In this document: positions 18,256-63,196 of the stretch, piece after piece
Position numbering within the stretch: the stretch's first letter is position 1
Layout of the letters: each line of letters opens with the position of its first letter
DNA from: Henricia sp. BOLD:AAB3569
Lineage: Eukaryota > Echinodermata > Asteroidea > Spinulosida > Echinasteridae
Length of the DNA stretch: 64,000 nt
Direction of reading: 5' to 3'
Assembly (NCBI GenBank): GCA_037783545.1
Contig: JBBELK010000636.1
Location: forward strand, 372,001 to 436,000
Translations under genes and position numbers: made by a program
Notes under the pieces: generated by a model
The model's input: the letters and a program-made list of their open reading frames with translations, nothing else
Told to the model about the DNA's origin: nothing
Database searches by the model: none

Positions 18256-18297
18256 GACAGTGCTTCGCTCAGGACGAGTACCGCCACTCTTGTATCA

Positions 18298-21978: not shown

Positions 21979-24900
21979 GCGCCGACAGGTCCGGTCCTTA
22001 CAAACTTTACAAAAAATCGACTCTTCCGAAAATGCCTTAAAAATACATGTAATCCTAAATGAAAATTTAGCATATCCCCAACTCATTTTGGAAGAATTCA
22101 GGACTTTCTTTTTTTCCAGGACCGGGGTCATCGGCGCCGACAGGTCTGGTCCTTAAAAAATTTACAAAAAATTGACTCTTCCGAAAATGCCTTAGAAATA
22201 ATCCTAAATGAAAAGTTAGCATATACCCACCTCATTTTGGAAAATTTCAGGACTTTCTTTTTTTCCAGGACCGGGGTCATCGGCGCCGACAGGTCCGGTC
22301 CCTACAAAAGTTTTAGAAAATCGACTCTTCCGAAAATGCCTTAGAAATAATCCTAAATGAAAAGTTAGCATATCCACAACTCATTTTGGCAGATTTCAGG
22401 ACTTTCTTTTTTTCCAGGACCGGGGTCATCGGCGCCGACAGGTCCGGTCCTTACAAAATTGACAAAAAATCGACTCTTCCGAAAATGCCTTAGAAATAAT
22501 CCTAAATGAAAATTTAGCATATCCCCACCTCATTTTGGCAGATTTCAGGACTTTCTTTTTTTCCAGGACCGGGGTCATCGGCGCCGACAGGTCCGGTCCT
22601 TACAAAATTGACAAAAAATTGACTCTTCCAAAAATGCCTTAGAAATAATCCTAAATGAAAATTTAGCATATCCCCACCTCATTTTGGCAGATTTCAGGAC
22701 TGTCTTTTTTTCCAGGACCGGGGTCATCGGCGCCGACAGGTCCGGTCCTTAAATTTACAAAAAATCGACTCTTCCGAAAATGCCTTAGAAATAATCCTAA
22801 ATGAAAATTTACCATATCCCCAACTCATTTTGGCAGATTTCAGGACTTTCTTTTTTTCCAGGACCGGGGTCATCGGTGCCGAAAGGTCCGGTCCTTACAA
22901 AATTTACAAAAAATTGACTCTTCCGAAAATGCCTTAGAAATAATCCTAAATGAAAATTTAGCATATATCCACAACTCATTTTGGCAGATTTCAGGACTTT
23001 ATTTTTTTGCAGGACCGGGGTCATCGGCGCCGACAGGTCCGGTCCTTACAAAATTTACAAAAAATTGACTCTTCCGAAAATGCCTTAGAAATAATCCTAA
23101 ATGAAAATTTAGCATATCCACAACTCATTTTGGCAGATTTCAGGACTTTCTTTTTTTCCTGGACCGGGGTCATCGGCGCCGACAGGTACGGTCCTTACAA
23201 AATTTACAAAAAATTGACTCTTTCGAAAATGCCTTAGAAATAATCCTGAATGAAAATTTAGCATATCCACAACTCATTTTGGCAGATTTCAGGACTTTCT
23301 TTTTTTGCAGGACCGGGGTCATCGGCGCCGACAGGTACGGTCCTTACAAAATTTACAAAAAATCGACTCTTCCGAAAATGCCTTAGAAATAATCCTAAAT
23401 AAAAATTTAGCATATCCACAACTCATTTTGGCAGATTTCAGGACTTTCTTTTTTTCCAGGACCAGGATCATCGGCGCCGACAGGTACGGTCCTTACAAAA
23501 TTTCAAAAAAATGGACTCTTCCGAAAATGCCTTAGAAATAATCCTAAATGAAAATTTAGCATATCCACAACTCATTTTGGCAGATTTCAGGACTTTCTTT
23601 TTTTGCAGGACCGGGGTCATCGGCACCGACAGGTCCGGTCCTTACAAAATTTACAAAAAATTGACTTTTCCGAAAATGTCTCAAAAATAATCCTAAATGA
23701 AAATTTAGCGTATCCTCAACTCATTTTGGCAGATTTCAGGACTTTCTTTTTTTGCAGGACCGGGGTCATCGGCGCCGACAGGTACGGTCCTTACAAAATT
23801 TACAAAAAATTGACTCTTCCGAAAATGCCTTAGAAATAATCCTAAATGAAAATTTAGCATATCCACAACTCATTTTGGCAGATTTCAGGACTTTCTTTTT
23901 TTGCAGGACCGGGGTCATCGGCGCCGACAGGTCTGGTCCTTACAAAATTTACAAAAAATCGACTCTTCCGAAAATGTCTCAAAAATGATCCTAAATGAAA
24001 ATTTAGCATATCCCCAACTCATTTTGGCAGATTTCAGGACTTTCTTTTTTTGTAGGACCGGGGTCATCGGCGCCGACAGGTCCGGTCCTTAAAAAATTTA
24101 CAAAAAATCGACTCTTCCGAAAATGTCTCAAAAATAATCCTAAATGAAAATTTAGCATATCCACAACTCATTTTGGCAGATTTCAGGACTTTCTTTTTTT
24201 CCAGGACCGGGATCATCGGCGTCGACAGGTACGGTCCTTACAAAATTTCCAAAAAATTGACTTTTCCGAAAATGTCTCAAAAATAATCCTAAATGAAAAT
24301 TTAGCATATCCCCAACTCATTTTGGCAGATTTCAGGACTTTCTTTTCTTGCAGGACCGGGGTCATCGGCGCCGACAGGTACGGTCCTTACAAAATTTAAA
24401 AAAAATCGACTCTTCCGAAAATGCCTTAGAAATAATCCTAAATGAAAATTTAGCATATATCCACAACTCATTTTGGCAGATTTCAGGACTTTCTTTTTTT
24501 GTAGGACCGGGGTCATCGGCGCCGACAGGTCCGGTCCTTACAAAATTTACAAAAAATCGACTCTTCCGAAAATGTCTCAAAAATGATCCTAAATGAAAAT
24601 TTAGCATATCCCCAACTCATTTTGGCAGATTTCAGGACTTTCTTTTTTTGTAGGACCGGGGTCATCGGCGCCGACAGGTCCGGTCCTTACAAAATTTACA
24701 AAAAATCGACTCTTCCGAAAATGCCTTAGAAATAATCCTAAATGAAAAGTTAGCATATCCCCACCTCATTTTGGCAGATTTCAGGACTTTCTTTTTTTCC
24801 AGGACCGGGGTCATTGGCGCCGACAGGTCCGGTCCTTACAAAATTTACAAAAAATCGACTCTTCCGAAAATGCCTTACAAATAATCCTAAATGAAAAGTC

Positions 24901-25393
24901 AGCATATCCCCAACTCATTTTGGCAGATTTCAGGACTTTCTTTTTTTCCAGGACCGGGGGTCATCGGCGCCGACAGGTCCGGTCCTTACAAAATTGACAA
25001 AAAATCGACTCTTCCGAAAATGCCTTAGAAATAATCCTAAATGAAAATTTAGCATATCCCCACCTCATTTTGGCAGATTTCAGGACTTTCTTTTTTTGCA
25101 GGACCGGGGTCATCGGCGCCGACAGGTCCGGTCCTTAAAAAATTTACAAAAAATCGACTCTTCCGAAAATGTCTCAAAAATAATCCTAAATGAAAATTTA
25201 GCATATCCCCAACTCATTTTGGCAGATTTCAGGACTTTCTTTTTTTGCAGGACCGGGGTCATCGGCGCCGACAGGTACGGTCCTTACAAAATTTCAAAAA
25301 AATGGACTCTTCCGAAAATGCCTTAGAAATAATCCTAAATGAAAATTTAGCATATCCACAACTCATTTTGGCAGATTTCAGGACTTTCTTTTT

Positions 25394-28300
25394 TTGCAGG
25401 ACCGGGGTCATCGGCACCGACAGGTCCGGTCCTTACAAAATTTACAAAAAATTGACTTTTCCGAAAATGTCTCAAAAATAATCCTAAATGAAAATTTAGC
25501 GTATCCTCAACTCATTTTGGCAGATTTCAGGACTTTCTTTTTTTGCAGGACCGGGGTCATCGGCGCCGACAGGTACGGTCCTTACAAAATTTACAAAAAA
25601 TGGACTCTTCCGAAAATGCCTTAGAAATAATCCTAAATGAAAATTTAGCATATCCACAACTCATTTTGGCAGATTTCAGGACTTTCTTTTTTTGCAGGAC
25701 CGGGGTCATCGGCGCCGACAGGTCTGGTCCTTACAAAATTTACAAAAAATCGACTCTTCCGAAAATGTCTCAAAAATGATCCTAAATGAAAATTTAGCAT
25801 ATCCCCAACTCATTTTGGCAGATTTCAGGACTTTCTTTTTTTGTAGGACCGGGGTCATCGGCGCCGACAGGTCCGGTCCTTACAAAATTTACAAAAAATT
25901 GACTTTTCCGAAAATGTCTCAAAAATAATCCTAAATGAAAATTTAGCATATCCCCAACTCATTTTGGCAGATTTCAGGACTTTCTTTTTTTCCAGGACCG
26001 GGGTCATCGGCGCCGACAGGTACGGTCCTTACAAAATTTACAAAAAATTTACTCTTCCGAAAATGCCTTAGAAATAATCCTAAATGAAAATTTAGCATAT
26101 CCCCAACTCATTTTGGCAGATTTCAGGACTTTCTTTTTTTGTAGGACCGGGGTCATCGGCGCCGACAGGTCCGGTCCTTAAAAAATTTACAAAAAATTGA
26201 CTCTTCCGAAAATGTCTCAAAAATAATCCTAAATGAAAATTTAGCATATCCCCAACTCATTTTGGCAGATTTCAGGACTTTCTTTTTTTGCAGGACCGGG
26301 GTCATCGGCGCCGACAGGTACGGTCCTTACAAAATTTCCAAAAAATTGACCTTTCCGAAAATGTCTCAAAAATAATCCTAAATGAAAATTTAGCATATCC
26401 CCAACTCATTTTGGCAGATTTCAGGACTTTCTTTTCTTGCAGGACCGGGGTCATCGGCGCCGACAGGTACGGTCCTTACAAAATTTTAAAAAAATCGACT
26501 CTTCCGAAAATGCCTTAGAAATAATCCTAAATGAAAATTTAGCATATATCCACAACTCATTTTGGCAGATTTCAGGACTTTCTTTTTTTGTAGGACCGGG
26601 GTCATCGGCGCCGACAGGTCCGGTCCTTAAAAAATTTACAAAAAATTGACTCTTCCGAAAATGTCTCAAAAATAATCCTAAATGAAAATTTAGCATATCC
26701 CCAACTCATTTTGGCAGATTTCAGGACTTTCTTTTTTTGCAGGACCGGGGTCATCGGCGCCGACAGGTACGGTCCTTACAAAATTTCCAAAAAATTGACC
26801 TTTCCGAAAATGTCTCAAAAATAATCCTAAATGAAAATTTAGCATATCCCCAACTCATTTTGGCAGATTTCAGGACTTTCTTTTCTTGCAGGACCGGGGT
26901 CATCGGCGCCGACAGGTACGGTCCTTACAAAATTTACAAAAAATTGACTCTTCCGAAAATGCCTTAGAAATAATCCTAAATGAAAATTTAGCATATCCAC
27001 AACTCATTTTGGCAGATTTCAGGACTTTCTTTTTTTCCAGGACCGGGGTCATTGGCGCCGACAGGTCCGGTCCTTACAAAATTTACAAAAAATCGACTCT
27101 TCCGAAAATGCCTTAGAAATAATCCTAAATGAAAAGTTAGCATATCCCCACCTCATTTTGGCAGATTTCAGGACTTTCTTTTTTTGCAGGACCGGGGTCA
27201 TCGGCGCCGACAGGTACGGTCCTTACAAAATTTACAAAAAATTGACTCTTCCGAAAATGCCTTAGAAATAATCCTAAATGAAAATTTAGCATATCCACAA
27301 CTCATTTTGGCAGATTTCAGGACTTTCTTTTTTTGCAGGACCGGGGTCATCGGCGCCGACAGGTCTGGTCCTTACAAAATTTACAAAAAATTGACCTTTC
27401 CGAAAATGTCTCAAAAATAATCCTAAATGAAAATTTAGCATATCCCCAACTCATTTTGGCAGATTTCAGGACTTTCTTTTCTTGCAGGACCGGGGTCATC
27501 GGCGCCGACAGGTACGGTCCTTACAAAATTTTAAAAAAATCGACTCTTCCGAAAATGCCTTAGAAATAATCCTAAATGAAAATTTAGCATATATCCACAA
27601 CTCATTTTGGCAGATTTCAGGACTTTCTTTTTTTGTAGGACCGGGGTCATCGGCGCCGACAGGTCCGGTCCTTAAAAAATTTACAAAAAATTGACTCTTC
27701 CGAAAATGTCTCAAAAATAATCCTAAATGAAAATTTAGCATATCCCCAACTCATTTTGGCAGATTTCAGGACTTTCTTTTTTTGCAGGACCGGGGTCATC
27801 GGCGCCGAAAGGTACGGTCCTTACAAAATTTCCAAAAAATTGACCTTTCCGAAAATGTCTCAAAAATAATCCTAAATGAAAATTTAGCATATCCCCAACT
27901 CATTTTGGCAGATTTCAGGACTTTCTTTTCTTGCAGGACCGGGGTCATCGGCGCCGACAGGTACGGTCCTTACAAAATTTACAAAAAATTGACTCTTCCG
28001 AAAATGCCTTAGAAATAATCCTAAATGAAAATTTAGCATATCCACAACTCATTTTGGCAGATTTCAGGACTTTCTTTTTTTCCAGGACCGGGGTCATTGG
28101 CGCCGACAGGTCCGGTCCTTACAAAATTTACAAAAAATCGACTCTTCCGAAAATGCCTTAGAAATAATCCTAAATGAAAAGTTAGCATATCCCCACCTCA
28201 TTTTGGCAGATTTCAGGACTTTCTTTTTTTGCAGGACCGGGGTCATCGGCGCCGACAGGTACGGTCCTTACAAAATTTACAAAAAATTGACTCTTCCGAA

Positions 28301-31300
28301 AATGCCTTAGAAATAATCCTAAATGAAAATTTAGCATATCCACAACTCATTTTGGCAGATTTCAGGACTTTCTTTTTTTGCAGGACCGGGGTCATCGGCG
28401 CCGACAGGTCTGGTCCTTACAAAATTTACAAAAAATCGACTCTTCCGAAAATGTCTCAAAAATGATCCTAAATGAAAATTTAGCATATCCCCAACTCATT
28501 TTGGCAGATTTCAGGACTTTCTTTTTTTGTAGGACCGGGGTCATCGGCGCCGACAGGTCCGGTCCTTAAAAAATTTACAAAAAATCGACTCTTCCGAAAA
28601 TGTCTCAAAAATAATCCTAAATGAAAATTTAGCATATCCACAACTCATTTTGGCAGATTTCAGGACTTTCTTTTTTTCCAGGACCGGGATCATCGGCGCC
28701 GACAGGTACGGTCCTTACAAAATTTCCAAAAAATTGACTTTTCCGAAAATGTCTCAAAAATAATCCTAAATGAAAATTTAGCATATCCCCAACTCATTTT
28801 GGCAGATTTCAGGACTTTCTTTTCTTGCAGGACCGGGGTCATCGGCGCCGACAGGTACGGTCCTTACAAAATTAAAAAAAAATTGACTCTTCCGAAAATG
28901 CCTTAGAAATAATCCTAAATGAAAATTTAGCATATATCCACAACTCATTTTGGCAGATTTCAGGACTTTCTTTTTTTGTAGGACCGGGGTCATCGGCGCC
29001 GACAGGTCCGGTCCTTACAAAATTTACAAAAAATTGACTCTTCCGAAAATGTCTCAAAAATGATCCTAAATGAAAATTTAGCATATCCCCAACTCATTTT
29101 GGCAGATTTCAGGACTTTCTTTTTTTGTAGGACCGGGGTCATCGGCGCCGACAGGTCCGGTCCTTACAAAATTTACAAAAAATCGACTCTTCCGAAAATG
29201 CCTTAGAAATAATCCTAAATGAAAAGTTAGCATATCCCCACCTCATTTTGGCAGATTTCAGGACTTTCTTTTTTTCCAGGACCAGGGTCATTGGCGCCGA
29301 CAGGTACGGTCCTTACAAAATTTAAAAAAAATCGACTCTTCCGAAAATGCCTTAGAAATAATCCTAAATGAAAATTTAGCATATATCCACAACTCATTTT
29401 GGCAGATTTCAGGATTTTCTTTTTTTGTAGGACCGGGGTCATCGGCGCCGACAGGTCCGGTCCTTACAAAATTTACAAAAAATCGACTCTTCCGAAAATG
29501 TCTCAAAAATGATCCTAAATGAAAATTTAGCATATCCCCAACTCATTTTGGCAGATTTCAGGACTTTCTTTTTTTGTAGGACCGGGGTCATCGGCGCCGA
29601 CAGGTCCGGTCCTTACAAAATTTACAAAAAATCGACTCTTCCGAAAATGCCTTAGAAATAATCCTAAATGAAAAGTTAGCATATCCCCACCTCATTTTGG
29701 CAGATTTCAGGACTTTCTTTTTTTGTAGGACCGGGGTCATCGGCGCCGACAGGTCCGGTCCTTACAAAATTTACAAAAAATCGACTCTTCCGAAAATGCC
29801 TTAGAAATAATCCTAAATGAAAAGTTAGCATATCCCCACCTCATTTTGGCAGATTTCAGGACTTTCTTTTTTTCCAGGACCGGGGTCATTGGCGCCGACA
29901 GGTCCGGTCCTTACAAAATTTACAAAAAATCGACTCTTCCGAAAATGCCTTACAAATAATCCTAAATGAAAAGTCAGCATATCCCCAACTCATTTTGGCA
30001 GATTTCAGGACTTTCTTTTTTTCCAGGACCGGGGTCATCGGCGCCGACAGGTCCGGTCCTTACAAAATTGACAAAAAATCGACTCTTCCGAAAATGCCTT
30101 AGAAATAATCCTAAATGAAAATTTAGCATATCCCCACCTCATTTTGGCAGATTTCAGGACTTTCTTTTTTTGCAGGACCGGGGTCATCGGCGCCGACAGG
30201 TCCGGTCCTTAAAAAATTTACAAAAAATCGACTCTTCCGAAAATGTCTCAAAAATAATCCTAAATGAAAATTTAGCATATCCCCAACTCATTTTGGCAGA
30301 TTTCAGGACTTTCTTTTTTTGCAGGACCGGGGTCATCGGCGCCGACAGGTACGGTCCTTACAAAATTTACAAAAAATTGACTCTTCCGAAAATGCCTTAG
30401 AAATAATCCTAAATGAAAATTTAGCATATCCCCAACTCATTTTGGCAGATTTCAGGACTTTCTTTTTTTGTAGGACCGGGGTCATCGGCGCCGACAGGTC
30501 CGGTCCTTACAAAATTTACAAAAAATCGACTCTTCCGAAAATGTCTCAAAAATGATCCTAAATGAAAATTTAGCATATCCCCAACTCATTTTGGCAGATT
30601 TCAGGACTTTCTTTTTTTGTAGGACCGGGGTCATCGGCGCCGACAGGTCCGGTCCTTAAAAAATTTACAAAAAATTGACTCTTCCGAAAATGTCTCAAAA
30701 ATAATCCTAAATGAAAATTTAGCATATCCCCAACTCATTTTGGCAGATTTCAGGACTTTCTTTTTTTGCAGGACCGGGGTCATCGGCGCCGACAGGTACG
30801 GTCCTTACAAAATTTACAAAAAATCGACTCTTCCGAAAATGCCTTAGAAATAATCCTAAATAAAAATTTAGCATATCCACAACTCATTTTGGCAGATTTC
30901 AGGACTTTCTTTTTTTCCAGGACCGGGATCATCGGCGCCGACAGGTCCGGTCCTTACAAAATTTCAAAAAAATGGACTCTTCCGAAAATGCCTTAGAAAT
31001 AATCCTAAATGAAAATTTAGCATATCCACAACTCATTTTGGCAGATTTCAGGACTTTCTTTTTTTGCAGGACCGGGGTCATCGGCACCGACAGGTCCGGT
31101 CCTTACAAAATTTACAAAAAATTGACTTTTCCGAAAATGTCTCAAAAATAATCCTAAATGAAAATTTAGCGTATCCTCAACTCATTTTGGCAGATTTCAG
31201 GACTTTCTTTTTTTGCAGGACCGGGGTCATCGGCGCCGACAGGTACGGTCCTTACAAAATTTACAAAAAATGGACTCTTCCGAAAATGCCTTAGAAATAA

Positions 31301-34250
31301 TCCTAAATGAAAATTTAGCATATCCACAACTCATTTTGGCAGATTTCAGGACTTTCTTTTTTTGCAGGACCGGGGTCATCGGCGCCGACAGGTCTGGTCC
31401 TTACAAAATTTACAAAAAATCGACTCTTCCGAAAATGTCTCAAAAATGATCCTAAATGAAAATTTAGCATATCCCCAACTCATTTTGGCAGATTTCAGGA
31501 CTTTCTTTTTTTGTAGGACCGGGGTCATCGGCGCCGACAGGTCCGGTCCTTACAAAATTTACAAAAAATTGACTTTTCCGAAAATGTCTCAAAAATAATC
31601 CTAAATGAAAATTTAGCATATCCCCAACTCATTTTGGCAGATTTCAGGACTTTCTTTTTTTCCAGGACCGGGGTCATCGGCGCCGACAGGTACGGTCCTT
31701 ACAAAATTTACAAAAAATTTACTCTTCCGAAAATGCCTTAGAAATAATCCTAAATGAAAATTTAGCATATCCCCAACTCATTTTGGCAGATTTCAGGACT
31801 TTCTTTTTTTGTAGGACCGGGGTCATCGGCGCCGACAGGTCCGGTCCTTAAAAAATTTACAAAAAATTGACTCTTCCGAAAATGTCTCAAAAATAATCCT
31901 AAATGAAAATTTAGCATATCCCCAACTCATTTTGGCAGATTTCAGGACTTTCTTTTTTTGCAGGACCGGGGTCATCGGCGCCGACAGGTACGGTCCTTAC
32001 AAAATTTCCAAAAAATTGACCTTTCCGAAAATGTCTCAAAAATAATCCTAAATGAAAATTTAGCATATCCCCAACTCATTTTGGCAGATTTCAGGACTTT
32101 CTTTTCTTGCAGGACCGGGGTCATCGGCGCCGACAGGTACGGTCCTTACAAAATTTTAAAAAAATCGACTCTTCCGAAAATGCCTTAGAAATAATCCTAA
32201 ATGAAAATTTAGCATATATCCACAACTCATTTTGGCAGATTTCAGGACTTTCTTTTTTTGTAGGACCGGGGTCATCGGCGCCGACAGGTCCGGTCCTTAA
32301 AAAATTTACAAAAAATTGACTCTTCCGAAAATGTCTCAAAAATAATCCTAAATGAAAATTTAGCATATCCCCAACTCATTTTGGCAGATTTCAGGACTTT
32401 CTTTTTTTGCAGGACCGGGGTCATCGGCGCCGACAGGTACGGTCCTTACAAAATTTCCAAAAAATTGACCTTTCCGAAAATGTCTCAAAAATAATCCTAA
32501 ATGAAAATTTAGCATATCCCCAACTCATTTTGGCAGATTTCAGGACTTTCTTTTCTTGCAGGACCGGGGTCATCGGCGCCGACAGGTACGGTCCTTACAA
32601 AATTTACAAAAAATTGACTCTTCCGAAAATGCCTTAGAAATAATCCTAAATGAAAATTTAGCATATCCACAACTCATTTTGGCAGATTTCAGGACTTTCT
32701 TTTTTTCCAGGACCGGGGTCATTGGCGCCGACAGGTCCGGTCCTTACAAAATTTACAAAAAATCGACTCTTCCGAAAATGCCTTAGAAATAATCCTAAAT
32801 GAAAAGTTAGCATATCCCCACCTCATTTTGGCAGATTTCAGGACTTTCTTTTTTTGCAGGACCGGGGTCATCGGCGCCGACAGGTACGGTCCTTACAAAA
32901 TTTACAAAAAATTGACTCTTCCGAAAATGCCTTAGAAATAATCCTAAATGAAAATTTAGCATATCCACAACTCATTTTGGCAGATTTCACGACTTTCTTT
33001 TTTTGCAGGACCGGGGTCATCGGCGCCGACAGGTCTGGTCCTTACAAAATTTACAAAAAATCGACTCTTCCGAAAATGTCTCAAAAATGATCCTAAATGA
33101 AAATTTAGCATATCCCCAACTCATTTTGGCAGATTTCAGGACTTTCTTTTTTTGTAGGACCGGGGTCATCGGCGCCGACAGGTCCGGTCCTTAAAAAATT
33201 TACAAAAAATCGACTCTTCCGAAAATGTCTCAAAAATAATCCTAAATGAAAATTTAGCATATCCACAACTCATTTTGGCAGATTTCAGGACTTTCTTTTT
33301 TTCCAGGACCGGGATCATCGGCGCCGACAGGTACGGTCCTTACAAAATTTCCAAAAAATTGACTTTTCCGAAAATGTCTCAAAAATAATCCTAAATGAAA
33401 ATTTAGCATATCCCCAACTCATTTTGGCAGATTTCAGGACTTTCTTTTCTTGCAGGACCGGGGTCATCGGCGCCGACAGGTACGGTCCTTACAAAATTAA
33501 AAAAAAATTGACTCTTCCGAAAATGCCTTAGAAATAATCCTAAATGAAAATTTAGCATATATCCACAACTCATTTTGGCAGATTTCAGGACTTTCTTTTT
33601 TTGTAGGACCGGGGTCATCGGCGCCGACAGGTCCGGTCCTTACAAAATTTACAAAAAATTGACTCTTCCGAAAATGTCTCAAAAATGATCCTAAATGAAA
33701 ATTTAGCATATCCCCAACTCATTTTGGCAGATTTCAGGACTTTCTTTTTTTGTAGGACCGGGGTCATCGGCGCCGACAGGTCCGGTCCTTACAAAATTTA
33801 CAAAAAATCGACTCTTCCGAAAATGCCTTAGAAATAATCCTAAATGAAAAGTTAGCATATCCCCACCTCATTTTGGCAGATTTCAGGACTTTCTTTTTTT
33901 CCAGGACCAGGGTCATTGGCGCCGACAGGTACGGTCCTTACAAAATTTAAAAAAAATCGACTCTTCCGAAAATGCCTTAGAAATAATCCTAAATGAAAAT
34001 TTAGCATATATCCACAACTCATTTTGGCAGATTTCAGGACTTTCTTTTTTTGTAGGACCGGGGTCATCGGCGCCGACAGGTCCGGTCCTTACAAAATTTA
34101 CAAAAAATCGACTCTTCCGAAAATGTCTCAAAAATGATCCTAAATGAAAATTTAGCATATCCCCAACTCATTTTGGCAGATTTCAGGACTTTCTTTTTTT
34201 GTAGGACCGGGGTCATCGGCGCCGACAGGTACGGTCCTTACAAAATTTAC
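25394..34250 (+). repeat. segmental duplication inside the array, 5,670-bp offset
   Basis: Marker variants at 25.39-28.0 kb recur 5,670 bp later: GGCACCGAC at about 25.41 and 31.08 kb, AATTTACTCTTCC at 26.05 and 31.72 kb, TTGACCTTTCC at 26.35 and 32.02 kb. Markers at 28.8-29.6 kb recur 4,625 bp later (ACCAGGGTCATTGG at 29.28 and 33.91 kb). The difference, 1,045 bp, is exactly the tandem duplication present in the left copy only. Confidence 0.85.
26345..28430 (+). repeat. tandem 7-mer higher-order repeat, period 1,045 bp
   Basis: Variant monomers at 26288, 26437, 26737, 26886 and 27184 reappear at +1,045 bp (27333, 27482, 27782, 27931, 28229). The period is seven units plus two bases because one unit carries the longer CATATATCC. 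The outermost units are hybrids, as expected at unequal-exchange joints. Confidence 0.85.
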
Positions 34251-34930
34251 AAAAAATTGACTCTTCCGAAAATGCCTTAGAAATAATCCTAAATGAAAAT
34301 TTAGCATATCCACAACTCATTTTGGCAGATTTCAGGACTTTCTTTTTTTCCAGGACCGGGGTCATTGGCGCCGACAGGTCCGGTCCTTACAAAATTTACA
34401 AAAAATCGACTCTTCCGAAAATGCCTTAGAAATAATCCTAAATGAAAAGTTAGCATATCCCCACCTCATTTTGGCAGATTTCAGGACTTTCTTTTTTTGC
34501 AGGACCGGGGTCATCGGCGCCGACAGGTACGGTCCTTACAAAATTTACAAAAAATTGACTCTTCCGAAAATGCCTTAGAAATAATCCTAAATGAAAATTT
34601 AGCATATCCACAACTCATTTTGGCAGATTTCACGACTTTCTTTTTTTGCAGGACCGGGGTCATCGGCGCCGACAGGTCTGGTCCTTACAAAATTTACAAA
34701 AAATCGACTCTTCCGAAAATGTCTCAAAAATGATCCTAAATGAAAATTTAGCATATCCCCAACTCATTTTGGCAGATTTCAGGACTTTCTTTTTTTGTAG
34801 GACCGGGGTCATCGGCGCCGACAGGTCCGGTCCTTAAAAAATTTACAAAAAATCGACTCTTCCGAAAATGTCTCAAAAATAATCCTAAATGAAAATTTAG
34901 CATATCCACAACTCATTTTGGCAGATTTCA
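32700..34930 (+). repeat. 11-mer higher-order duplication, offset 1,643 bp
   Basis: The rare variant TTTCACGACTTTC (G to C in CAGG) occurs only near 32.99 and 34.63 kb, in matching monomer context (units at 32854 and 34497, 33003 and 34646). Confidence 0.75.
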
Positions 34931-36870: not shown

Positions 36871-36989
36871 TTTGCAGGACCGGGGTCATCGGCGCCGACA
36901 GGTCCGGTCTTTACAAAATTGACAAAAAATCGACTCTTCCGAAAATGTCTCAAAAATGATCCTAAATGAAAATTTAGCATATCCCCAAC

Positions 36990-45500: not shown

Positions 45501-45559
45501 GGACTTTCTTTTTTTCCAGGACCGGGGTCATCAGCGCCGACAGGTACGGTCCTTACAAA

Positions 45560-50400: not shown

Positions 50401-50999
50401 CATTTTGGCAGATTTCAGGACTTTCTTTTTTTGTAGGACCGGGGTCATCGGCGCCGACAGGTCCGGTCCTTACAAAATTTACAAAAAATCGACTCTTCCG
50501 AAAATGCCTTAGAAATAATCCTAAATGAAAATTTAGCATATCCACAACTCATTTTGACAGATTTCAGGACTTTCTTTTTTTGCAGGACCGGGGTCATCGG
50601 CGCCGACAGGTACGGTCCTTACAAAATTTACAAAAAATCGACTCTTCCGAAAATGCCTTAGAAATAATCCTAAATGAAAATTTAGCATATCCACAACTCA
50701 TTTTGGCAGATTTCAGGACTTTCTTTTTTTGCAGGACCGGGGTCATCGGCGCCGACAGGTCCGGTCCTTACAAAATTGACAAAAAATTGACTCTTCCGAA
50801 AATGTCTCAAAAATGATCCTAAATGAAAATTTAGCATATCCCCAACTCATTTTGGCAGATTTCAGGACTTTCTTTTTTTGTAGGACCGGGGTCATCGGCG
50901 CCGACAGGTCCGGTCCTTACAAAATTTACAAAAAATCAACTCTTCTGAAAATGCCTTAGAAATAATCCTAAATGAAAATTTAGCATATCCACAACTCAT

Positions 51000-53700
51000 T
51001 TTGACAGATTTCAGGACTTTCTTTTTTTGCAGGACCGGGGTCATCGGCGCCGACAGGTACGGTCCTTACAAAATTTACAAAAAATCGACTCTTCCGAAAA
51101 TGCCTTAGAAATAATCCTAAATGAAAATTTAGCATATCCACAACTCATTTTGGCAGATTTCAGGACTTTCTTTTTTTGTAGGACCGGGGTCATCGGCGCC
51201 GACAGGTACGGTCCTTACAAAATTAAAAAAAAATCGACTCTTCCGAAAATGCCTTAGAAATAATCCTAAATGAAAATTTAGCATATCCACAACTCATTTT
51301 GGCAGATTTCAGGACTTTCTTTTTTTCCAGGACCAGGGTCATCGGCGCCGACAGGTACGGTCCTTACAAAATTTACAAAAAATTGACTCTTCCGAAAATG
51401 CCTTAGAAATAATCCTAAATGAAAATTTAGCATATCCACAACTCATTTTGGCAGATTTCAGGACTTTCTTTTTTTGCAGGACCGGGGTCATCGGCGCCGA
51501 CAGGTCCGGTCCTTACAAAATTGACAAAAAATTGACTCTTCCGAAAATGTCTCAAAAATGATCCTAAATGAAAATTTAGCATATCCCCAACTCATTTTGG
51601 CAGATTTCAGGACTTTCTTTTTTTGTAGGACCGGGGTCATCGGCGCCGACAGGTCCGGTCCTTACAAAATTTACAAAAAATCAACTCTTCTGAAAATGCC
51701 TTAGAAATAATCCTAAATGAAAATTTAGCATATCCACAACTAATTTTGGCAGATTTCAGGACTTTCTTTTTTTCCTGGACCGCGGTCATCGGCGCCGACA
51801 GGTATGGTCCTTACAAAATTTACAAAAAATTGACTCTTCCGAAAATGCCTTAGAAATAATCCTAAATGAAAATTTAGCATATCCACAACTCATTTTGGCA
51901 GATTTCAGGACTTTCTTTTTTTGCAGGACCGGGGTCATCGGCGCCGACAGGTACGGTCCTTACAAAATTTACAAAAAATTGACTCTTCCGAAAATGCCTT
52001 AGAAATAATCCTAAATGAAAATTTAGCATATCCACAACTCATTTTGGCAGATTTCAGGACTTTCTTTTTTTGTAGGACCGGGGTCATCGGCGCCGACAGG
52101 TACGGTCCTTACAAAATTTAAAAAAAATCTACTCTTCCGAAAATGCCTTAGAAATAATCCTAAATGAAAATTTAGCATATCCACAACTCATTTTGGCAGA
52201 TTTCAGGACTTTCTTTTTTTCCAGGACCAGGGTCATCGGCGCCGACAGGTACGGTCCTTACAAAATTTACAAAAAATTGACTCTTCCGAAAATGCCTTAG
52301 AAATAATCCTAAATGAAAATTTAGCATATCCACAACTCATTTTGGCAGATTTCAGGACTTTCTTTTTTTGCAGGACCGGGGTCATCGGCGCCGACAGGTC
52401 CGGTCCTTACAAAATTGACAAAAAATTGACTCTTCCGAAAATGTCTCAAAAATGATCCTAAATGAAAATTTAGCATATCCCCAACTCATTTTGGCAGATT
52501 TCAGGACTTTCTTTTTTTGTAGGACCGGGGTCATCGGCGCCGACAGGTCCGGTCCTTACAAAATTTACAAAAAATCAACTCTTCTGAAAATGCCTTAGAA
52601 ATAATCCTAAATGAAAATTTAGCATATCCACAACTCATTTTGACAGATTTCAGGACTTTCTTTTTTTGCAGGACCGGGGTCATCGGCGCCGACAGGTACG
52701 GTCCTTACAAAATTTACAAAAAATCGACTCTTCCGAAAATGCCTTAGAAATAATCCTAAATGAAAATTTAGCATATCCACAACTCATTTTGGCAGATTTC
52801 AGGACTTTCTTTTTTTGTAGGACCGGGGTCATCGGCGCCGACAGGTACGGTCCTTACAAAATTAAAAAAAAATCGACTCTTCCGAAAATGCCTTAGAAAT
52901 AATCCTAAATGAAAATTTAGCATATCCACAACTCATTTTGGCAGATTTCAGGACTTTCTTTTTTTCCAGGACCAGGGTCATCGGCGCCGACAGGTACGGT
53001 CCTTACAAAATTTACAAAAAATTGACTCTTCCGAAAATGCCTTAGAAATAATCCTAAATGAAAATTTAGCATATCCACAACTCATTTTGGCAGATTTCAG
53101 GACTTTCTTTTTTTGCAGGACCGGGGTCATCGGCGCCGACAGGTCCGGTCCTTACAAAATTGACAAAAAATTGACTCTTCCGAAAATGTCTCAAAAATGA
53201 TCCTAAATGAAAATTTAGCATATCCCCAACTCATTTTGGCAGATTTCAGGACTTTCTTTTTTTGTAGGACCGGGGTCATCGGCGCCGACAGGTCCGGTCC
53301 TTACAAAATTTACAAAAAATCAACTCTTCTGAAAATGCCTTAGAAATAATCCTAAATGAAAATTTAGCATATCCACAACTAATTTTGGCAGATTTCAGGA
53401 CTTTCTTTTTTTCCTGGACCGCGGTCATCGGCGCCGACAGGTATGGTCCTTACAAAATTTACAAAAAATTGACTCTTCCGAAAATGCCTTAGAAATAATC
53501 CTAAATGAAAATTTAGCATATCCACAACTCATTTTGGCAGATTTCAGGACTTTCTTTTTTTGCAGGACCGGGGTCATCGGCGCCGACAGGTACGGTCCTT
53601 ACAAAATTTACAAAAAATTGACTCTTCCGAAAATGCCTTAGAAATAATCCTAAATGAAAATTTAGCATATCCACAACTCATTTTGGCAGATTTCAGGACT
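51000..53700 (+). repeat. 11-mer higher-order repeat, period 1,639 bp
   Basis: Units with TTACAAAATTAAAAAAAAAT (51.22, 52.86 kb) and with CCTGGACCGCGG/GTATGG (51.77, 53.41 kb) recur at exactly 1,639 bp. Confidence 0.85.
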
Positions 53701-53999
53701 TTCTTTTTTTGCAGGACCGGGGTCATCGGCGCCGACAGGTCCGGTCCTTACAAAATTTACAAAAAATCGACTCTTCCGAAAATGTCTCAAAAATAATCCT
53801 AAATGAAAATTTAGCATATCCCCAACTCATTTTGGCAGATTTCAGGACTTTCTTTTTTTCCAGGACCTGGGTCATCGGCGCCGACAGGTACGGTCCTTAC
53901 AAAATTTACAAAAAATCGACTCTTCCAAAAATGCCTTAGAAATAATCCTAAATGAAAACTTAGCATATCCACAACTCATTTTGACAGATTTCAGGACTT

Positions 54000-56240
54000 T
54001 CTTTTTTTGCAGGACCGGGGTCATCGGCGCCGACAGGTCCGGTCCTTACAAAATTTACAAAAAATTTACTCTTCCGAAAATGCCTTAGAAATAATCCTAA
54101 ATGAAAATTTAGCATATCCACAACTCATTTTGGCAGATTTCAGGACTTTCTTTTTTTGTAGGACCGGCGTCATCGGCGCCGACAGGTCAGGTCCTTACAA
54201 AATTTACAAAAAATCGACTCTTCGGAAAATGTCTTAGAAATAATCCTAAATGAAAATTTAGCATATCCACAACTAATTTTGGCAGATTTCAGGACTTTCT
54301 TTTTTTCCAGGACCGGGGTCATCAGCGCCGACAGGTACGGTCCTTACAAAATTTACAAAAAATCGACTCTTCCGAAAATGCCTTAGAAATAATCCTAAAT
54401 GAAAATTTAGCATATCCACAACTCATTTTGGCAGATTTCAGGACTTTCTTTTTTTGTAGGACCGGGGTCATCGGCGCCGACAGGTCCGGTCCTTACAAAA
54501 TTTACAAAAAATCGACTCTTCCGAAAATGCCTTAGAAATAGTCCTAAATGAAAATTTAGCATATCCACAACTCATTTTGGCAGATTTCAGGACTTTCTTT
54601 TTTTGCAGGACCGGGGTCATCGGCGCCGACAGGTACGGTCCTTACAAAATTTACAAAAAATTGACTCTTCCGAAAATGTCTTAGAAATAATCCTAAATGA
54701 AAATTTAGCATATCCACAACTCATTTTGGCAGATTTCAGGACTTTCTTTTTTTGCAGGACCGGGGTCATCGGCGCCGACAGGTCCGGTCCTTACAAAATT
54801 TACAAAAAATCGACTCTTCCGAAAATGTCTAAAAAATAATCCTAAATGAAAATTTAGCATATCCCCAACTCATTTTGGCAGATTTCAGGACTTTCTTTTT
54901 TTGCAGGACCGGGGTCATCGGCGCCGACAGGTACGGTCCTTACAAAATTTACAAAAAATCGACTCTTCCGAAAATGTCTAAAAAATAATCCTAAATGAAA
55001 ATTTAGCATATCCCCAACTCATTTTGGCAGATTTCAGGACTTTCTTTTTTTGCAGGACCGGGGTCATCGGCGCCGACAGGTCCGGTCCTTACAAAATTTA
55101 CAAAAAATTTACTCTTCCGAAAATGCCTTAGAAATAATCCTAAATGAAAACTTAGCATATCCACAACTCATTTTGACAGATTTCAGGACTTTCTTTTTTT
55201 GCAGGACCGGGGTCATCGGCGCCGACAGGTCCGGTCCTTACAAAATTTACAAAAAATTTACTCTTCCGAAAATGCCTTAGAAATAATCCTAAATGAAAAT
55301 TTAGCATATCCACAACTCATTTTGGCAGATTTCAGGACTTTCTTTTTTTGTAGGACCGGCGTCATCGGCGCCGACAGGTCAGGTCCTTACAAAATTTACA
55401 AAAAATCGACTCTTCGGAAAATGTCTTAGAAATAATCCTAAATGAAAATTTAGCATATCCACAACTAATTTTGGCAGATTTCAGGACTTTCTTTTTTTCC
55501 AGGACCGGGGTCATCAGCGCCGACAGGTACGGTCCTTACAAAATTTACAAAAAATCGACTCTTCCGAAAATGCCTTAGAAATAATCCTAAATGAAAATTT
55601 AGCATATCCACAACTCATTTTGGCAGATTTCAGGACTTTCTTTTTTTGTAGGACCGGGGTCATCGGCGCCGACAGGTCCGGTCCTTACAAAATTTACAAA
55701 AAATCGACTCTTCCGAAAATGCCTTAGAAATAGTCCTAAATGAAAATTTAGCATATCCACAACTCATTTTGGCAGATTTCAGGACTTTCTTTTTTTGCAG
55801 GACCGGGGTCATCGGCGCCGACAGGTACGGTCCTTACAAAATTTACAAAAAATTGACTCTTCCGAAAATGTCTTAGAAATAATCCTAAATGAAAATTTAG
55901 CATATCCACAACTCATTTTGGCAGATTTCAGGACTTTCTTTTTTTGCAGGACCGGGGTCATCGGCGCCGACAGGTCCGGTCCTTACAAAATTTACAAAAA
56001 ATCGACTCTTCCGAAAATGTCTAAAAAATAATCCTAAATGAAAATTTAGCATATCCCCAACTCATTTTGGCAGATTTCAGGACTTTCTTTTTTTGCAGGA
56101 CCGGGGTCATCGGCGCCGACAGGTACGGTCCTTACAAAATTTACAAAAAATCGACTCTTCCGAAAATGTCTAAAAAATAATCCTAAATGAAAATTTAGCA
56201 TATCCCCAACTCATTTTGGCAGATTTCAGGACTTTCTTTT
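54000..56240 (+). repeat. tandem 8-mer higher-order repeat, period 1,192 bp
   Basis: Units with ACCGGCGTCATCGG and CTCTTCGGAAAATGTCTTAG (54.16 and 55.35 kb) and AAATAGTCCTAAATG (54.54 and 55.73 kb) recur at 1,192 bp. A related block recurs 2,980 bp downstream of 53.7-54.3 kb. Confidence 0.85.
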
Positions 56241-59200
56241 TTTGCAGGACCGGGGTCATCGGCGCCGACAGGTACGGTCCTTACAAAATTTACAAAAAAT
56301 TGACTCTTCCGAAAATGCCTTAGAAATAATCCTAAATGAAAATTTAGCATATCCACAACTCATTTTGGCAGATTTCAGGACTTTCTTTTTTTCTAGGACC
56401 GGGGTCATCGGCGCCGACAGGTACGGTCCTTACAAAATTTACAAAAAATTGACTCTTCCGAAAATGCCTTAGAAATAATCCTAAATGAAAATTTAGCATA
56501 TCCACAACTCATTTTGGCAGATTTCAGGACTTTCTTTTTTTGCAGGACCGGGGTCATCGGCGCCGACAGGTCCGGTCCTTACAAAATTGACAAAAAATCG
56601 ACTCTTCCGAAAATGTCTCAAAAATAATCCTAAATGAAAATTTAGCATATCCCCAACTCATTTTGGCAGATTTCAGGACTTTCTTTTTTTGCAGGACCGG
56701 GGTCATCGGCGCCGACAGGTCCGGTCCTTACAAAATTTACAAAAAATCGACTCTTCCGAAAATGTCTCAAAAATAATCCTAAATGAAAATTTAGCATATC
56801 CCCAACTCATTTTGGCAGATTTCAGGACTTTCTTTTTTTCCAGGACCTGGGTCATCGGCGCCGACAGGTACGGTCCTTACAAAATTTACAAAAAATCGAC
56901 TCTTCCAAAAATGCCTTAGAAATAATCCTAAATGAAAACTTAGCATATCCACAACTCATTTTGACAGATTTCAGGACTTTCTTTTTTTGCAGGACCGGGG
57001 TCATCGGCGCCGACAGGTCCGGTCCTTACAAAATTTACAAAAAATTGACTCTTCCGAAAATGCCTTAGAAATAATCCTAAATGAAAATTTAGCATATCCA
57101 CAACTCATTTTGGCAGATTTCAGGACTTTCTTTTTTTGTAGGACCGGCGTCATCGGCGCCGACAGGTCAGGTCCTTACAAAATTTACAAAAAATCGACTC
57201 TTCGGAAAATGTCTTAGAAATAATCCTAAATGAAAATTTAGCATATCCACAACTAATTTTGGCAGATTTCAGGACTTTCTTTTTTTCCAGGACCGGGGTC
57301 ATCAGCGCCGACAGGTACGGTCCTTACAAAATTTACAAAAAATCGACTCTTCCGAAAATGCCTTAGAAATAATCCTAAATGAAAATTTAGCATATCCACA
57401 ACTCATTTTGGCAGATTTCAGGACTTTCTTTTTTTGTAGGACCGGGGTCATCGGCGCCGACAGGTACGGTCCTTACAAAATTTACAAAAAATTGACTCTT
57501 CCGAAAATGCCTTAGAAATAATCCTAAATGAAAATTTAGCATATCCACAACTCATTTTGGCAGATTTCAGGACTTTCTTTTTTTCTAGGACCGGGGTCAT
57601 CGGCGCCGACAGGTACGGTCCTTACAAAATTTACAAAAAATTGACTCTTCCGAAAATGCCTTAGAAATAATCCTAAATGAAAATTTAGCATATCCACAAC
57701 TCATTTTGGCAGATTTCAGGACTTTCTTTTTTTGCAGGACCGGGGTCATCGGCGCCGACAGGTCCGGTCCTTACAAAATTTACAAAAAATCGACTCTTCC
57801 GAAAATGTCTCAAAAATGATCCTAAATGAAAATTTAGCATATCCCCAACTCATTTTGGCAGATTTCAGGACTTTCTTTTTTTGTAGGACCGGGGTCATCG
57901 GCGCCGACAGGTCCGGTCCTTACAAAATTTACAAAAAATCAACTCTTCCGAAAATGTCTCAAAAATAATCCTAAATGAAAATTTAGCATATCCCCAACTC
58001 ATTTTGTCAGATTTCAGGACTTTCTTTTTTTGCAGGACCGGGGTCATCGGCGCCGACAGGTACGGTCCTTACAAAATTTAAAAAAAATCGACTCTTCCGA
58101 AAATGCCTTAGAAATAATCCTAAATGAAAATTTAGCATATCCACAACTCATTTTGGCAGATTTCAGGACTTTCTTTTTTTGCAGGACCGGGGTCATCGGC
58201 GCCGACAGGTCCGGTCCTTACAAAATTGACAAAAAATCGACTCTTCCGAAAATGTCTCAAAAATGATCCTAAATGAAAATTTAGCATATCCCCAACTCAT
58301 TTTGGCAGATTTCAGGACTTTCTTTTTTTGTAGGACCGGGGTCATCGGCGCCGACAGGTCCGGTCCTTACAAAATTTACAAAAAATCGACTCTTCTGAAA
58401 ATGCCTTAGAAATAATCCTAAATGAAAATTTAGCATATCCACAACTCATTTTGACAGATTTCAGGACTTTCTTTTTTTGCAGGACTGTGGTCATCGGCGC
58501 CGACAGGTCCGGTCCTTACAAAATTTACAAAAAATTGACTCTTCCGAAAATGCCTTAGAAATAATCCTAAATGAAAATTTAGCATATCCACAACTCATTT
58601 TGGCAGATTTCAGGACTTTCTTTTTTTGCAGGACAGGGGTCATCGGCGCCGACAGGTCCGGTCCTTACAAAATTTACAAAAAATCGACTCTTCCGAAAAT
58701 GTCTTAGAAATAATCCTAAATGAAAATTTAGCATATATCCACAACTAATTTTGGCAGATTTCAGGACTTTCTTTTTTTGCAGGACCGGGGTCATCGGCGC
58801 CGACAGGTCCGGTCCTTACAAAATTTACAAAAAAATCGACTCTTCTGAAAATGTCTCAAAAATGATCCTAAATGAAAATTTAGCATATCCCCAACTCATT
58901 TTGGCAAATTTCAGGACTTTCTTTTTTCGCAGGACCGGGGTCACTGGCGCCGACAGGTCCGGTCCTTACAAAATTTACAAAAAATTGACTCTTCCGAAAA
59001 TGCCTTAGAAATAATCCTAAATGAAAATTTAGCATATCCACAACTCATTTTGGCAGATTTCAGGACTTTCTTTTTTTCCAGGACCGGGGTCATCGGCGCC
59101 GACAGGTACGGCCCTTACAAAATGTACATAAAATTGACTCTTCCGAAAATGCCTTAGAAATAATCCTAAATGAAAATTTAGCATATCCACAACTCATTTT

Positions 59201-60718
59201 GGCAGATTTCAGGACTTTCTTTTTTTGCAGGACCGGGGTCATCGGCGCCGACAGGTCCGGTCCTTACAAAATTGACAAAAAATCGACTCTTCCGAAAATG
59301 TCTCAAAAATGATCCTAAATGAAAATTTAGCATATCCCCAACTCATTTTGGCAGATTTCAGGACTTTCTTTTTTTGTAGGACCGGGGTCATCGGCGCCGA
59401 CAGGTCCGGTCCTTACAAAATTTACAAAAAATCGACTCTTCTGAAAATGCCTTAGAAATAATCCTAAATGAAAATTTAGCATATCCACAACTCATTTTGA
59501 CAGATTTCAGGACTTTCTTTTTTTGCAGGACCGGGGTCATCGGCGCCGACAGGTCCGGTCCTTACAAAATTTACAAAAAATTGACTCTTCCGAAAATGCC
59601 TTAGAAATAATCCTAAATGAAAATTTAGCATATCCACAACTCATTTTGGCAGATTTCAGGACTTTCTTTTTTTGCAGGACAGGGGTCATCGGCACCGACA
59701 GGTCCGGTCCTTACAAAATTTACAAAAAATCGACTCTTCCGAAAATGTCTTAGAAATAATCCTAAATGAAAATTTAGCATATATCCACAACTAATTTTGT
59801 GAGATTTCAGGACTTTCTTTTTTTGCAGGACCGGGGTCATCGGCGCCGACAGGTCCGGTCCTTACAAAATTTACAAAAAAATCGACTCTTCTGAAAATGT
59901 CTCAAAAATGATCCTAAATGAAAATTTAGCATATCCCCAACTCATTTTGGCAGATTTCAGGACTTTCTTTTTTTGTAGGACCGGGGTCATCGGCGCCGAC
60001 AGGTCCGGTCCTTACAAAATTTACAAAAAATCGACTCTTCTGAAAATGCCTTAGAAATAATCCTAAATGAAAATTTAGCATATCCACAACTCATTTTGAC
60101 AGATTTCAGGACTTTCTTTTTTTGCAGGACCGGGGTCATCGGCGCCGACAGGTCCGGTCCTTACAAAATTTACAAAAAATTGACTCTTCCGAAAATGCCT
60201 TAGAAATAATCCTAAATGAAAATTTAGCATATCCACAACTCATTTTGGCAGATTTCAGGACTTTCTTTTTTTGCAGGACAGGGGTCATCGGCGCCGACAG
60301 GTCCGGTCCTTACAAAATTTACAAAAAATCGACTCTTCCGAAAATGTCTTAGAAATAATCCTAAATGAAAATTTAGCATATATCCACAACTAATTTTGGC
60401 AGATTTCAGGACTTTCTTTTTTTGCAGGACCGGGGTCACTGGCGCCGACAGGTCCGGTCCTTACAAAATTTACAAAAAATTGACTCTTCCGAAAATGCCT
60501 TAGAAATAATCCTAAATGAAAATTTAGCATATCCACAACTCATTTTGGCAGATTTCAGGACTTTCTTTTTTTCCAGGACCGGGGTCATCGGCGCCGACAG
60601 GTACGGCCCTTACAAAATGTACATAAAATTGACTCTTCCGAAAATGCCTTAGAAATAATCCTAAATGAAAATTTAGCATATCCACAACTCATTTTGGCAG
60701 ATTTCAGGACTTTCTTTT

Positions 60719-61316
60719 TTTGCAGGACCGGGATCATCGGCGCCGACAGGTACGGTCCTTACAAAATTTACAAAAAAATCGACTCTTCCAAAAATGCCTT
60801 AGAAATAATCCTAAATGAAAATTTAGCATATCCACAACTCATTTTGGCAGATTTCAGGACTTTCTTTTTTCCAGGACCGGGGTCATCGGCGCCGACAGGT
60901 CCGGTCCTTACAAAATTTACAAAAAAATTGACTCTTCCGAAAATGTCTCAAAAATGATCCTAAATGAAAATTTAGCATATCCCCAACTCATTTTGGCAAA
61001 TTTCAGGACTTTCTTTTTTCGCAGGACCGGGATCATCGGCGCCGACAGGTACGGTCCTTACAAAATTTACAAAAAAATCGACTCTTCCAAAAATGCCTTA
61101 GAAATAATCCTAAATGAAAATTTAGCATATCCACAACTCATTTTGGCAGATTTCAGGACTTTCTTTTTTCCAGGACCGGGGTCATCGGCGCCGACAGGTC
61201 CGGTCCTTACAAAATTTACAAAAAAATTGACTCTTCCGAAAATGTCTCAAAAATGATCCTAAATGAAAATTTAGCATATCCCCAACTCATTTTGGCAAAT
61301 TTCAGGACTTTCTTTT
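60719..61316 (+). repeat. dimer higher-order repeat near the right edge, period 299 bp
   Basis: Two adjacent copies share ACCGGGATCATCGG, CTCTTCCAAAAATGCC, TTTTTTCCAGG and TTTTTTCGCAGG variants. Extra A residues (A7 after TTTAC) account for the added base. A further block at 61.3-62.5 kb recurs at +1,194 bp (ACTCTTTTTTTTTCCA and AATGTACATAAAATTG markers). Confidence 0.8.
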
Positions 61317-63093
61317 TTCGCAGGACCGGGGTCACTGGCGCCGACAGGTCCGGTCCTTACAAAATTTACAAAAAAATTGACTCTTCCGAAAATGCCTTAG
61401 AAATAATCCTAAATGAAAATTTAGCATATCCACAACTCATTTTGGCAGATTTCAGGACTTTCTGTTTTTGCAGGACCGGGGTCATCGGCGCCGACAGGTA
61501 CGGTCCTTACAAAATGTACATAAAATTGACTCTTCCGAAAATGCCTTAGAAATAATCTTAAATGAAAATTTACCATATCCCCAACTCATTTTGGCAGATT
61601 TCAGGACTCTTTTTTTTTCCAGGACCGGGGTCATCGGCGCCGACAGGTACGGTCCTTACAAAATTTACAAAAAATCGACTCTTCCGAAAATGCCTTAGAA
61701 ATAATCCTAAATGAAAATTTAGCATATCCACAACTCATTTTGGCAGATTTCAGGACTTTCTTTTTTTCCAGGACCGGGATCATCGGCGCCGACAGGTACC
61801 GGTCCTTACAAAATTTACAAAAAATCAACTCTTCCGAAAATGCCTTAGAAATAATCCTAAATGAAAATTTAGCATATCCACAACTCATTTTAGCAGATTT
61901 TAGGACTTTCTTTTTTTCCAGGACCGGGGTCATCGGCGCCAACAGGTCCGGTCCTTACAAAATTTACAAAAAAATTTACTCTTCCGAAAATGCCTTAGAA
62001 ATAATCCTAAATGAAAATTTAGCATATCCACAACTCATTTTGGCAGATTTCAGGACTTTCTGTTTTTGCAGGACCGGGGTCATCGGCGCCGACAGGTCCG
62101 GTCCTTACAAAATTTACAAAAAATTGACTCTTCCGAAAATGTCTCAAAAATAATCCTAAATGAAAATTTAGCATATCCCCAACTCATTTTGGCAGATTTC
62201 AGGACTTTCTTTTTTTCCAGGACCGGGGTCATCGGCGCCGACAGGTACGGTCCTTACAAAATTTACAAAAAATCGACTCTTCTGAAAATGCCTTAGAAAT
62301 AATCCTAAATGAAAATTTAGCATATCCACAACTCATTTTGGCAGATTTCAGGACTTTCTTTTTTCCAGGACCGGGGTCATCGGCGCCGACAGGTCCGGTC
62401 CTTACAAAATTTACAAAAAAATTGACTCTTCCGAAAATGTCTCAAAAATGATCCTAAATGAAAATTTAGCATATCCCCAACTCATTTTGGCAAATTTCAG
62501 GACTTTCTTTTTTCGCAGGACCGGGGTCACTGGCGCCGACAGGTCCGGTCCTTACAAAATTTACAAAAAATTGACTCTTCCGAAAATGCCTTAGAAATAA
62601 TCCTAAATGAAAATTTAGCATATCCACAACTCATTTTGGCAGATTTCAGGACTTTCTGTTTTTGCAGGACCGGGGTCATCGGCGCCGACAGGTACGGTCC
62701 TTACAAAATGTACATAAAATTGACTCTTCCGAAAATGCCTTAGAAATAATCTTAAATGAAAATTTACCATATCCCCAACTCATTTTGGCAGATTTCAGGA
62801 CTCTTTTTTTTTCCAAGACCGGGGTCATCGGCGCCGACAGGTACGGTCCTTACAAAATTTACAAAAAATCTACTCTTCCGAAAATGCCTTAGAAATAATC
62901 CTAAATGAAAATTTAGCATATCCACAACTCATTTTGGCAGATTTCAGGACTTTCTTTTTTTCCAGGACCAGGGTCATCGGCGCCGACAGGTCCGGTCCTT
63001 ACAAAATTTACAAAAAATCGACTCTTCCGGAAATGCCTTAGAAATGATCCTAAATGAAAAGTTAGCATATCCCCAACTTATTTTGGCAGATTT

Positions 63094-63147
63094 CAGGACT
63101 TTCTTTTTTTTCAGGACTTTCTTTTTTTTCAGGACTTTCTTTTTTTT
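63094..63147 (+). repeat. triplicated 18-bp segment inside one monomer
   Basis: CAGGACTTTCTTTTTTTT occurs three times back to back, then the monomer continues CAGGACCGGGG. All other monomers have one copy. This is the last forward monomer before the orientation change. Confidence 0.95.
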
Positions 63148-63196
63148 CAGGACCGGGGTCATCGGCGCCGACAGGTCCGGTCCTTACAAAATTTAC

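Follow-up and report, generated by a model that had tools for sequence, protein, structure and literature searches.

How a satellite array gains new copies, by slippage of one or a few units at a time or by the copying of whole blocks, is the question raised by a stretch of the genome of Henricia sp. BOLD:AAB3569 that we analysed over 64,000 nucleotides (hereafter the window, corresponding to C636:372001-436000). An initial annotation had described from the letters of this stretch a satellite of about 276 monomers of 149 bp at 21979..63196, in which rare variants recur at many offsets, and had read it as a set of nested higher-order repeats of mixed period.

A head-to-tail array of 149-bp units

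TRF, monomer cutting and blastn with the consensus all placed a 149-bp satellite, arranged head-to-tail on the plus strand, between 21979 and 63202. TRF reported it as a single array (21979-63117, period 149, 275.9 copies) and monomer cutting yielded 276 anchors, that is 275 monomers plus partial ends, so that the monomer count of the initial annotation held. Its left border was likewise correct as the start of the run, but the forward run ends at 63202 and not at 63196, and the array is larger than had been described: it measures about 44 kb, lies inside a contig of 1,106,055 bp and is flanked by non-satellite sequence on the left and on the right. The features at this locus are as follows.

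20886..21005, plus strand: satellite stub, unit positions 50-149 followed by 1-20 (blastn of the consensus, 95-100% identity)
21006..21978, minus strand: insert between stub and array (973 bp, made of an 881-bp LTR-like stretch and 92 bp)
21979..63202, plus strand: forward run of the satellite (275 monomers cut, each about 149 bp long, with partial units at its ends)
63091..63153, plus strand: 18-bp micro-repeat in 3.5 identical copies, directly left of the inversion (TRF)
63198..64000, minus strand: inverted satellite segment, running past the end of the window to about 64333

The units are uniform in length, 247 of the 275 monomers measuring exactly 149 bp and the others 141-151 bp, with the exception of one of 185 bp; only three fall outside 148-151 bp. 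The 247 monomers of exact length are on average 96.6% identical to their own consensus, pairwise comparison of all 275 gives a mean identity of 95.0%, and 135 of the 275 are distinct after projection onto the consensus. The 276 units of the window, together with 3,819 exact genome-wide matches of a 30-base piece of the unit (a reversed control pattern gave 0), place the sequence among satellite DNAs. The window array is an ordinary satellite with an easily read growth history.

A dispersed family with nearly private arrays

The 149-bp family is dispersed and apparently non-coding. It was detected on at least 10 of the 2,104 contigs of the 740.7-Mb assembly: C636, C308, C194, C7, C54, C60, C777, C365 and C256 were among the matches listed by a genome search, and a pattern search added C3. 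We analysed seven arrays comprising 1,068 monomers (C636, C308, C194, C7, C54, C60 and C365, of which C60, C365, C7 and C308 are incomplete) and left out C777, C256 and C3. The 30-base piece is carried by 650 of the 1,068 monomers, and the per-array fraction varies from 0.36 to 0.845, so that the genome-wide estimate of about 6,300 monomers (0.93 Mb, 0.13% of the assembly) is only rough. More matches to the family were seen at C3:1842440-1854515, where the spacing of exact matches, read by hand, repeats at about 1,328 bp at the start.

Any two arrays have between 0 and 2 exact monomer haplotypes in common and never two consecutive ones. The arrays thus carry nearly private sets of monomer variants, which indicates that recent exchange took place mainly within arrays. 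This privacy rests on haplotypes and not on mean identity, since only three of the seven arrays (C636, C194 and C7) have a mean internal identity above all of the between-array values.

The arrays sit among unrelated edge sequence and have different edge phases. Nine flanks belonging to six arrays were compared, one of 1.3 kb and the other eight of 4 kb; they share scattered repeats only, and no common element abuts the array in two of them. A repeat adjoining the left edge of C54 recurs in inverted orientation 0.8 kb beyond its right edge; in no flank pair do both copies abut the array, and we rejected the idea that the satellite is carried inside a transposon. Going by their descriptions in PMC5844308 and PMC3411249, and not by sequence, the euchromatic satellites of Tribolium castaneum are similar in that one family occupies several sites amid other sequence.

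Recent duplications copy whole blocks of monomers

Pairs of monomer runs sharing rare variants were scored as segments, with 100 shuffles of the monomer order as a control. The window array contains 30 segments scoring above 35, compared to a shuffle mean of 0.23, and 22 above 45, compared to 0.01. Their offsets (299, 894, 1045, 1192/1195, 1490, 1639/1643 and 1788/1791 bp, and 2,980-13,410 bp) include those at which the initial annotation had rare variants recurring. The shortest of these, the two-monomer period, is present as one dimer pair, but its score of 42.2 is barely over the 95% level of the shuffles (41.0). Gapped chaining joined the matches into 17 chains covering 209 of the 275 monomers. 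The unweighted mean lag profile is shallow (0.949-0.956 at the lags printed, with a largest z of 5.7 at lag 11), which indicates that no single higher-order period dominates, and identical monomer pairs, which make up 4.0% of the pairs at lags 6-12 in this array, drop to 0.14% beyond lag 200. This decay supports the earlier suggestion that the many coexisting periods reflect recent, local block duplication without one fixed unit, as does the same style of duplication in the other arrays, five of six of which carry block duplications above threshold. The shuffled background was high in C54 and C365 (33.97 and 10.23 segments above 35, compared to 70 and 13 observed) and only segments above 69 and 67, respectively, were therefore counted there. 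The 10-kb piece of C7 gave two segments above 35 and none above its own threshold. In an earlier part of the C7 array (C7:661435-677920) the spacings of exact matches, read by hand, repeat at 6,406, 7,752 and 1,346 bp, again as a large copy with a nested copy of nine monomers.

Single duplications could be mapped within the window array.

25254..34207, plus strand: nested duplication (monomers 21-34 match 59-72 at lag 38; monomers 35-49 match 66-80 at lag 31)
35540..49248, plus strand: second nested duplication (monomers 90-118 match 157-181, lags 63-73)
42245..45522, plus strand: tandem duplication, about 12 monomers long (135-145 match 147-156, with 10 identical monomer pairs)
50738..53717, plus strand: 11-monomer tandem duplication (192-200 match 203-211; 99.93% identity)
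54016..56250, plus strand: 8-monomer tandem duplication (214-220 match 222-228; identical)

The lag difference of 7 within the first nested duplication corresponds to a tandem duplication of seven monomers (28-34 to 35-41) that only one of the copies contains, and in the second each large copy contains a separate tandem duplication of six monomers (98-105/104-111 and 158-163/164-169). Since the small tandem duplications differ between the large copies, the large copying came first, or small ones were lost from one copy. Identity within the tandem pairs of 8, 10, 11 and 12 monomers is 99.4-100%. Recent duplications thus copy whole monomer blocks, are nested, and rarely reach three copies.

This last property bears on the term higher-order repeats, which we reserve for arrays in which a multi-monomer unit is iterated at least three times head to tail. 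With exact monomer matching, the largest tandem run amounts to 2.0 copies in the window array and 2.11 across the seven arrays; once mismatches are tolerated, a dimer in C365 is present in three copies, alone among the 71 segments scored in these arrays. We therefore do not regard the array as a true higher-order array, and the term proved too strong in the sense in which it is used for alpha satellite, as the exactly matching blocks are essentially two-copy. Alpha satellite, the model for Smith-type unequal exchange, resembles the present family in its head-to-tail units of approximately nucleosome length, its locally spread variants and its multi-monomer duplications, but its higher-order units are iterated many times, whereas the exactly matching blocks found here come in two copies and many sizes, without a demonstrated link to the centromere. 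Another system similar in its pattern of duplication is Arabidopsis CEN178, which forms centromeric arrays with small, local, non-fixed higher-order blocks: many small block duplications of mixed period occur in both, as do insertions related to LTR retrotransposons, although the CEN178 arrays are megabase-sized and those described here span tens of kilobases.

The size of the copying step

The 71 segments above threshold (72 when thresholds are left unrounded) comprise 36 at lags 5-19, 34 at lags of at least 20 and one at lag 2. Where the two copies abut, 17 of 18 duplications across the seven arrays span 5-19 monomers (about 0.75-2.8 kb) and the remaining one is a dimer. Segment scoring takes whole monomers only and is insensitive to single-monomer copies, the evidence on which comes from counts of identical pairs. 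No identical neighbours were found among the 274 adjacent pairs of the window array, and pooling the seven arrays gave 8 among 1,061, compared to a permutation mean of 20.0 (P 0.0025). Pooled identical pairs are in excess at lags 3, 5-12, 14, 15 and 19 (P 0.002 or less each; a second count found one more pair at lags 8, 12 and 19) and not in excess at lags 2, 4, 13, 16-18, 20-22, 24 and 25. The pooled counts are low at lags 13 and 23, and we have no explanation for either.

We compared these values with simulated arrays grown under various step sizes and mutation settings (25 runs per setting). With steps of one monomer, no fewer than 16 identical neighbours arose and the median ratio of lag 1-5 to lag 6-12 was 23-53. 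The window array, with a ratio of 0.19 and no identical neighbours, lies within the range obtained with steps of 6-12 monomers (0.10-0.39 at a mutation setting of 0.01), and steps of 6-12 or 5-20 monomers could be fitted to it at some mutation settings. Steps drawn uniformly from 1-12 fitted poorly (5-95% range 0.25-0.65 at the highest mutation setting) and are disfavoured by these models. The ratios of the seven arrays are 0.19, 0.35, 0.21, 0.40, 0.75, 0.33 and 5.50; C365 is intermediate and the C308 piece, of 35 monomers, opposite, and neither shows a deficit at short lags. It would be tempting, though we consider it rather doubtful, to read in these arrays a preferred copying step of about 0.7-3 kb that avoids one-unit steps and is common to independent arrays: half of the segments have lags of 20 or more, some of them being copies of copies, which blurs any preferred step.

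The edges of the array

The stub measures 120 bp and forms the left limit of the array within the window, no satellite being detected within the window to the left of 20886 by blastn of the consensus. The LTR-like stretch of the insert that follows it (21098-21978, 881 bp, minus strand) has the ends TGTTAC...GTAACA and contains TATAA and AATAAA. Part of the remaining 92 bp looks like a tRNA 3' end in complement, and the weak tmRNA T-arm match obtained at 21065-21082 corresponds to the insert's tRNA-like stem. Going by general hallmarks and by eye, not by a database match, we take these features for an LTR and a primer site. The 973 bp are flanked on both sides by satellite sequence that forms a 9-bp direct repeat. 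Because these nine unit bases are repeated at both flanks and the unit phase continues uninterrupted across them, the insert is most simply understood as having entered the array's first unit (the chance of such a repeat by phase alone being about 1/16, a rough estimate). LTR elements usually duplicate 4-6 bp of their target, and 9 bp is longer than usual. The window holds no second copy of the LTR-like stretch. With one such stretch, 92 bp and the 9-bp repeat, a full LTR retrotransposon, which would have two LTRs and internal genes, was rejected, and the insert is at most an incomplete derivative of one.

The left third of the window contains transposon remnants. Broken frames at 15126-18294 (minus strand), which we assume to be a BEL/Pao-like retrotransposon, gave one match to DUF5641 (E 4e-26) and one to a zinc knuckle (E 1e-4) among four sent to Pfam. 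Frames at 537-1832 (plus strand) and 11017-13415 (minus strand) resemble by eye DIRS-type tyrosine-recombinase elements, and six of them had no match in Pfam. Three fold-back stretches (1862-2058, 2074-2177 and 3500-3848; about 100-360 bp long, matching their own reverse complement at 72-85% identity) and a 160-bp repeat in opposite orientations (6676-6834 and 20581-20738, 76% identical) were also observed.

At its right edge the array flips to the minus strand at about 63200, runs inverted for 1,136 bp, returns to the plus strand near 64333 and, after a last forward piece of 538 bp, gives way to non-satellite DNA at 64873 (window numbering). The first strand switch sits in an A-rich stretch common to both orientations and is adjoined by local repeats of 16-18 bp. 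The C60 array also carries an inverted edge piece, of 869 bp and with a different junction. Inverted pieces were thus found at two of the nine array edges seen (the right edge of C636 and C60) and not at the left edge of C636, either edge of C194 or C54, the left edge of C365 or one edge of C308. The inverted pieces of the right edge were probably formed by template switching at A-rich microhomology. Switches of orientation inside arrays also characterise the macro-dyad satellites of Tribolium madens, in which, according to PMC13081366, the arms tend towards symmetry and measure kilobases to tens of kilobases, whereas the pieces seen here are of about 1.1 and 0.9 kb and lie at array edges.

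Models for the growth of the arrays

Taking these observations together, we consider that the best explanation, to which we would assign a probability of roughly 0.72, is a locally evolving satellite array that grew by homology-driven copying of blocks within the array, later received an LTR-like insertion, underwent template switching at an edge and probably has no sequence-specific function. The scarcity of identical neighbours and the span of 5-19 monomers in nearly all abutting duplications speak against slippage by single units and favour out-of-register exchange or break-induced copying, and the near absence of partial units is what in-register copying would leave. Copying would proceed by out-of-register exchange between sister chromatids or by break-induced replication, with re-entry into the array several to about twenty units away, and would be balanced by deletions; the insert would be a later, transposon-derived insertion at the array edge. 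Both homologous sister-chromatid exchange and break-induced replication are standing proposals for satellites in PMC8122249, and our data do not separate them.

Among the alternatives, blocks could also be generated, and dispersed arrays seeded, by the re-insertion of rolling-circle copies of extrachromosomal DNA, as proposed for other satellites in PMC13081366 and PMC8122249. The unrelated edge sequences and different edge phases of the arrays would suit such an origin, but rolling-circle copying predicts at least three tandem copies, which no exact run reaches and only the mismatched C365 dimer attains, and also predicts blocks common to several arrays, of which none of even two monomers was seen. 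We therefore regard it as an unlikely source of the blocks, although circles may have seeded arrays in the ancient past.

Slippage of one or a few units during replication is a general mechanism for tandem repeats, named among others in PMC8122249, and both the very short repeats of 16-18 bp beside the inversion and the pooled excess at lag 3 would be in keeping with it. As the main source of new copies it is nevertheless highly improbable: identical neighbours are absent from the window array and rarer than expected in the pooled arrays, and simulations with single steps do not reproduce the pattern, the lowest mean in looser runs still being 12.5 identical neighbours. It is very unlikely that the perfect block pairs are duplications made by the assembly, for although several are 100% identical over about 1.0-1.9 kb, many others differ (99.4-99.9%) and are consistently nested, the same pattern recurs in other contigs, and non-satellite DNA bounds the window array on both sides.

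A centromeric or pericentromeric satellite under functional constraint would account for a unit near nucleosome length, for the structure of the array and for a 36-bp imperfect dyad noticed by eye in the GC-rich part of the unit. We give this possibility very little weight: the array pieces lie inside large contigs in all seven cases fetched, the family makes up only about 0.13% of the assembly, the only two matches to the CENP-B box in the window are at 5.9 and 9.0 kb with none in the array, conservation beyond chance is seen in no 20-bp stretch of the unit, and the consensus does not fold unusually (fold z-score -0.55). This evidence is indirect as regards location. Nothing points to a centromere link, and the centromeric or large heterochromatic setting suggested by the initial annotation is not borne out by a 44-kb block with non-satellite DNA on both sides. 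The same conservation and folding results led us to reject a conserved protein-binding box and a hairpin. Long frames are present in the array, but a unit of 149 bp is not divisible by 3 and a coding function was discarded; a functional RNA was rejected on finding no Rfam match at gathering score in the window. The array is probably without sequence-specific function.

The satellite sequence was not found in viral contigs or plasmids, nor was a 15-base string from it found in papers, the search lying outside eukaryotic collections, and no paper joining '149 bp', 'satDNA' and 'monomer' was retrieved; the family may already be known from eukaryotic sequences.

Many satellite arrays cannot be read as a history because of their length or their uniformity. 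The arrays of this family are short, bounded in the assembly where both ends were covered, and variable enough for single block duplications to be seen, ordered and sized. The availability of several independent arrays allows growth models, one-unit slippage on the one hand and block exchange on the other, to be compared directly. If a preferred step common to the arrays were indeed real, the sequence of an array alone would give the step-size distribution of one repair pathway in this organism, for example break-induced re-entry.
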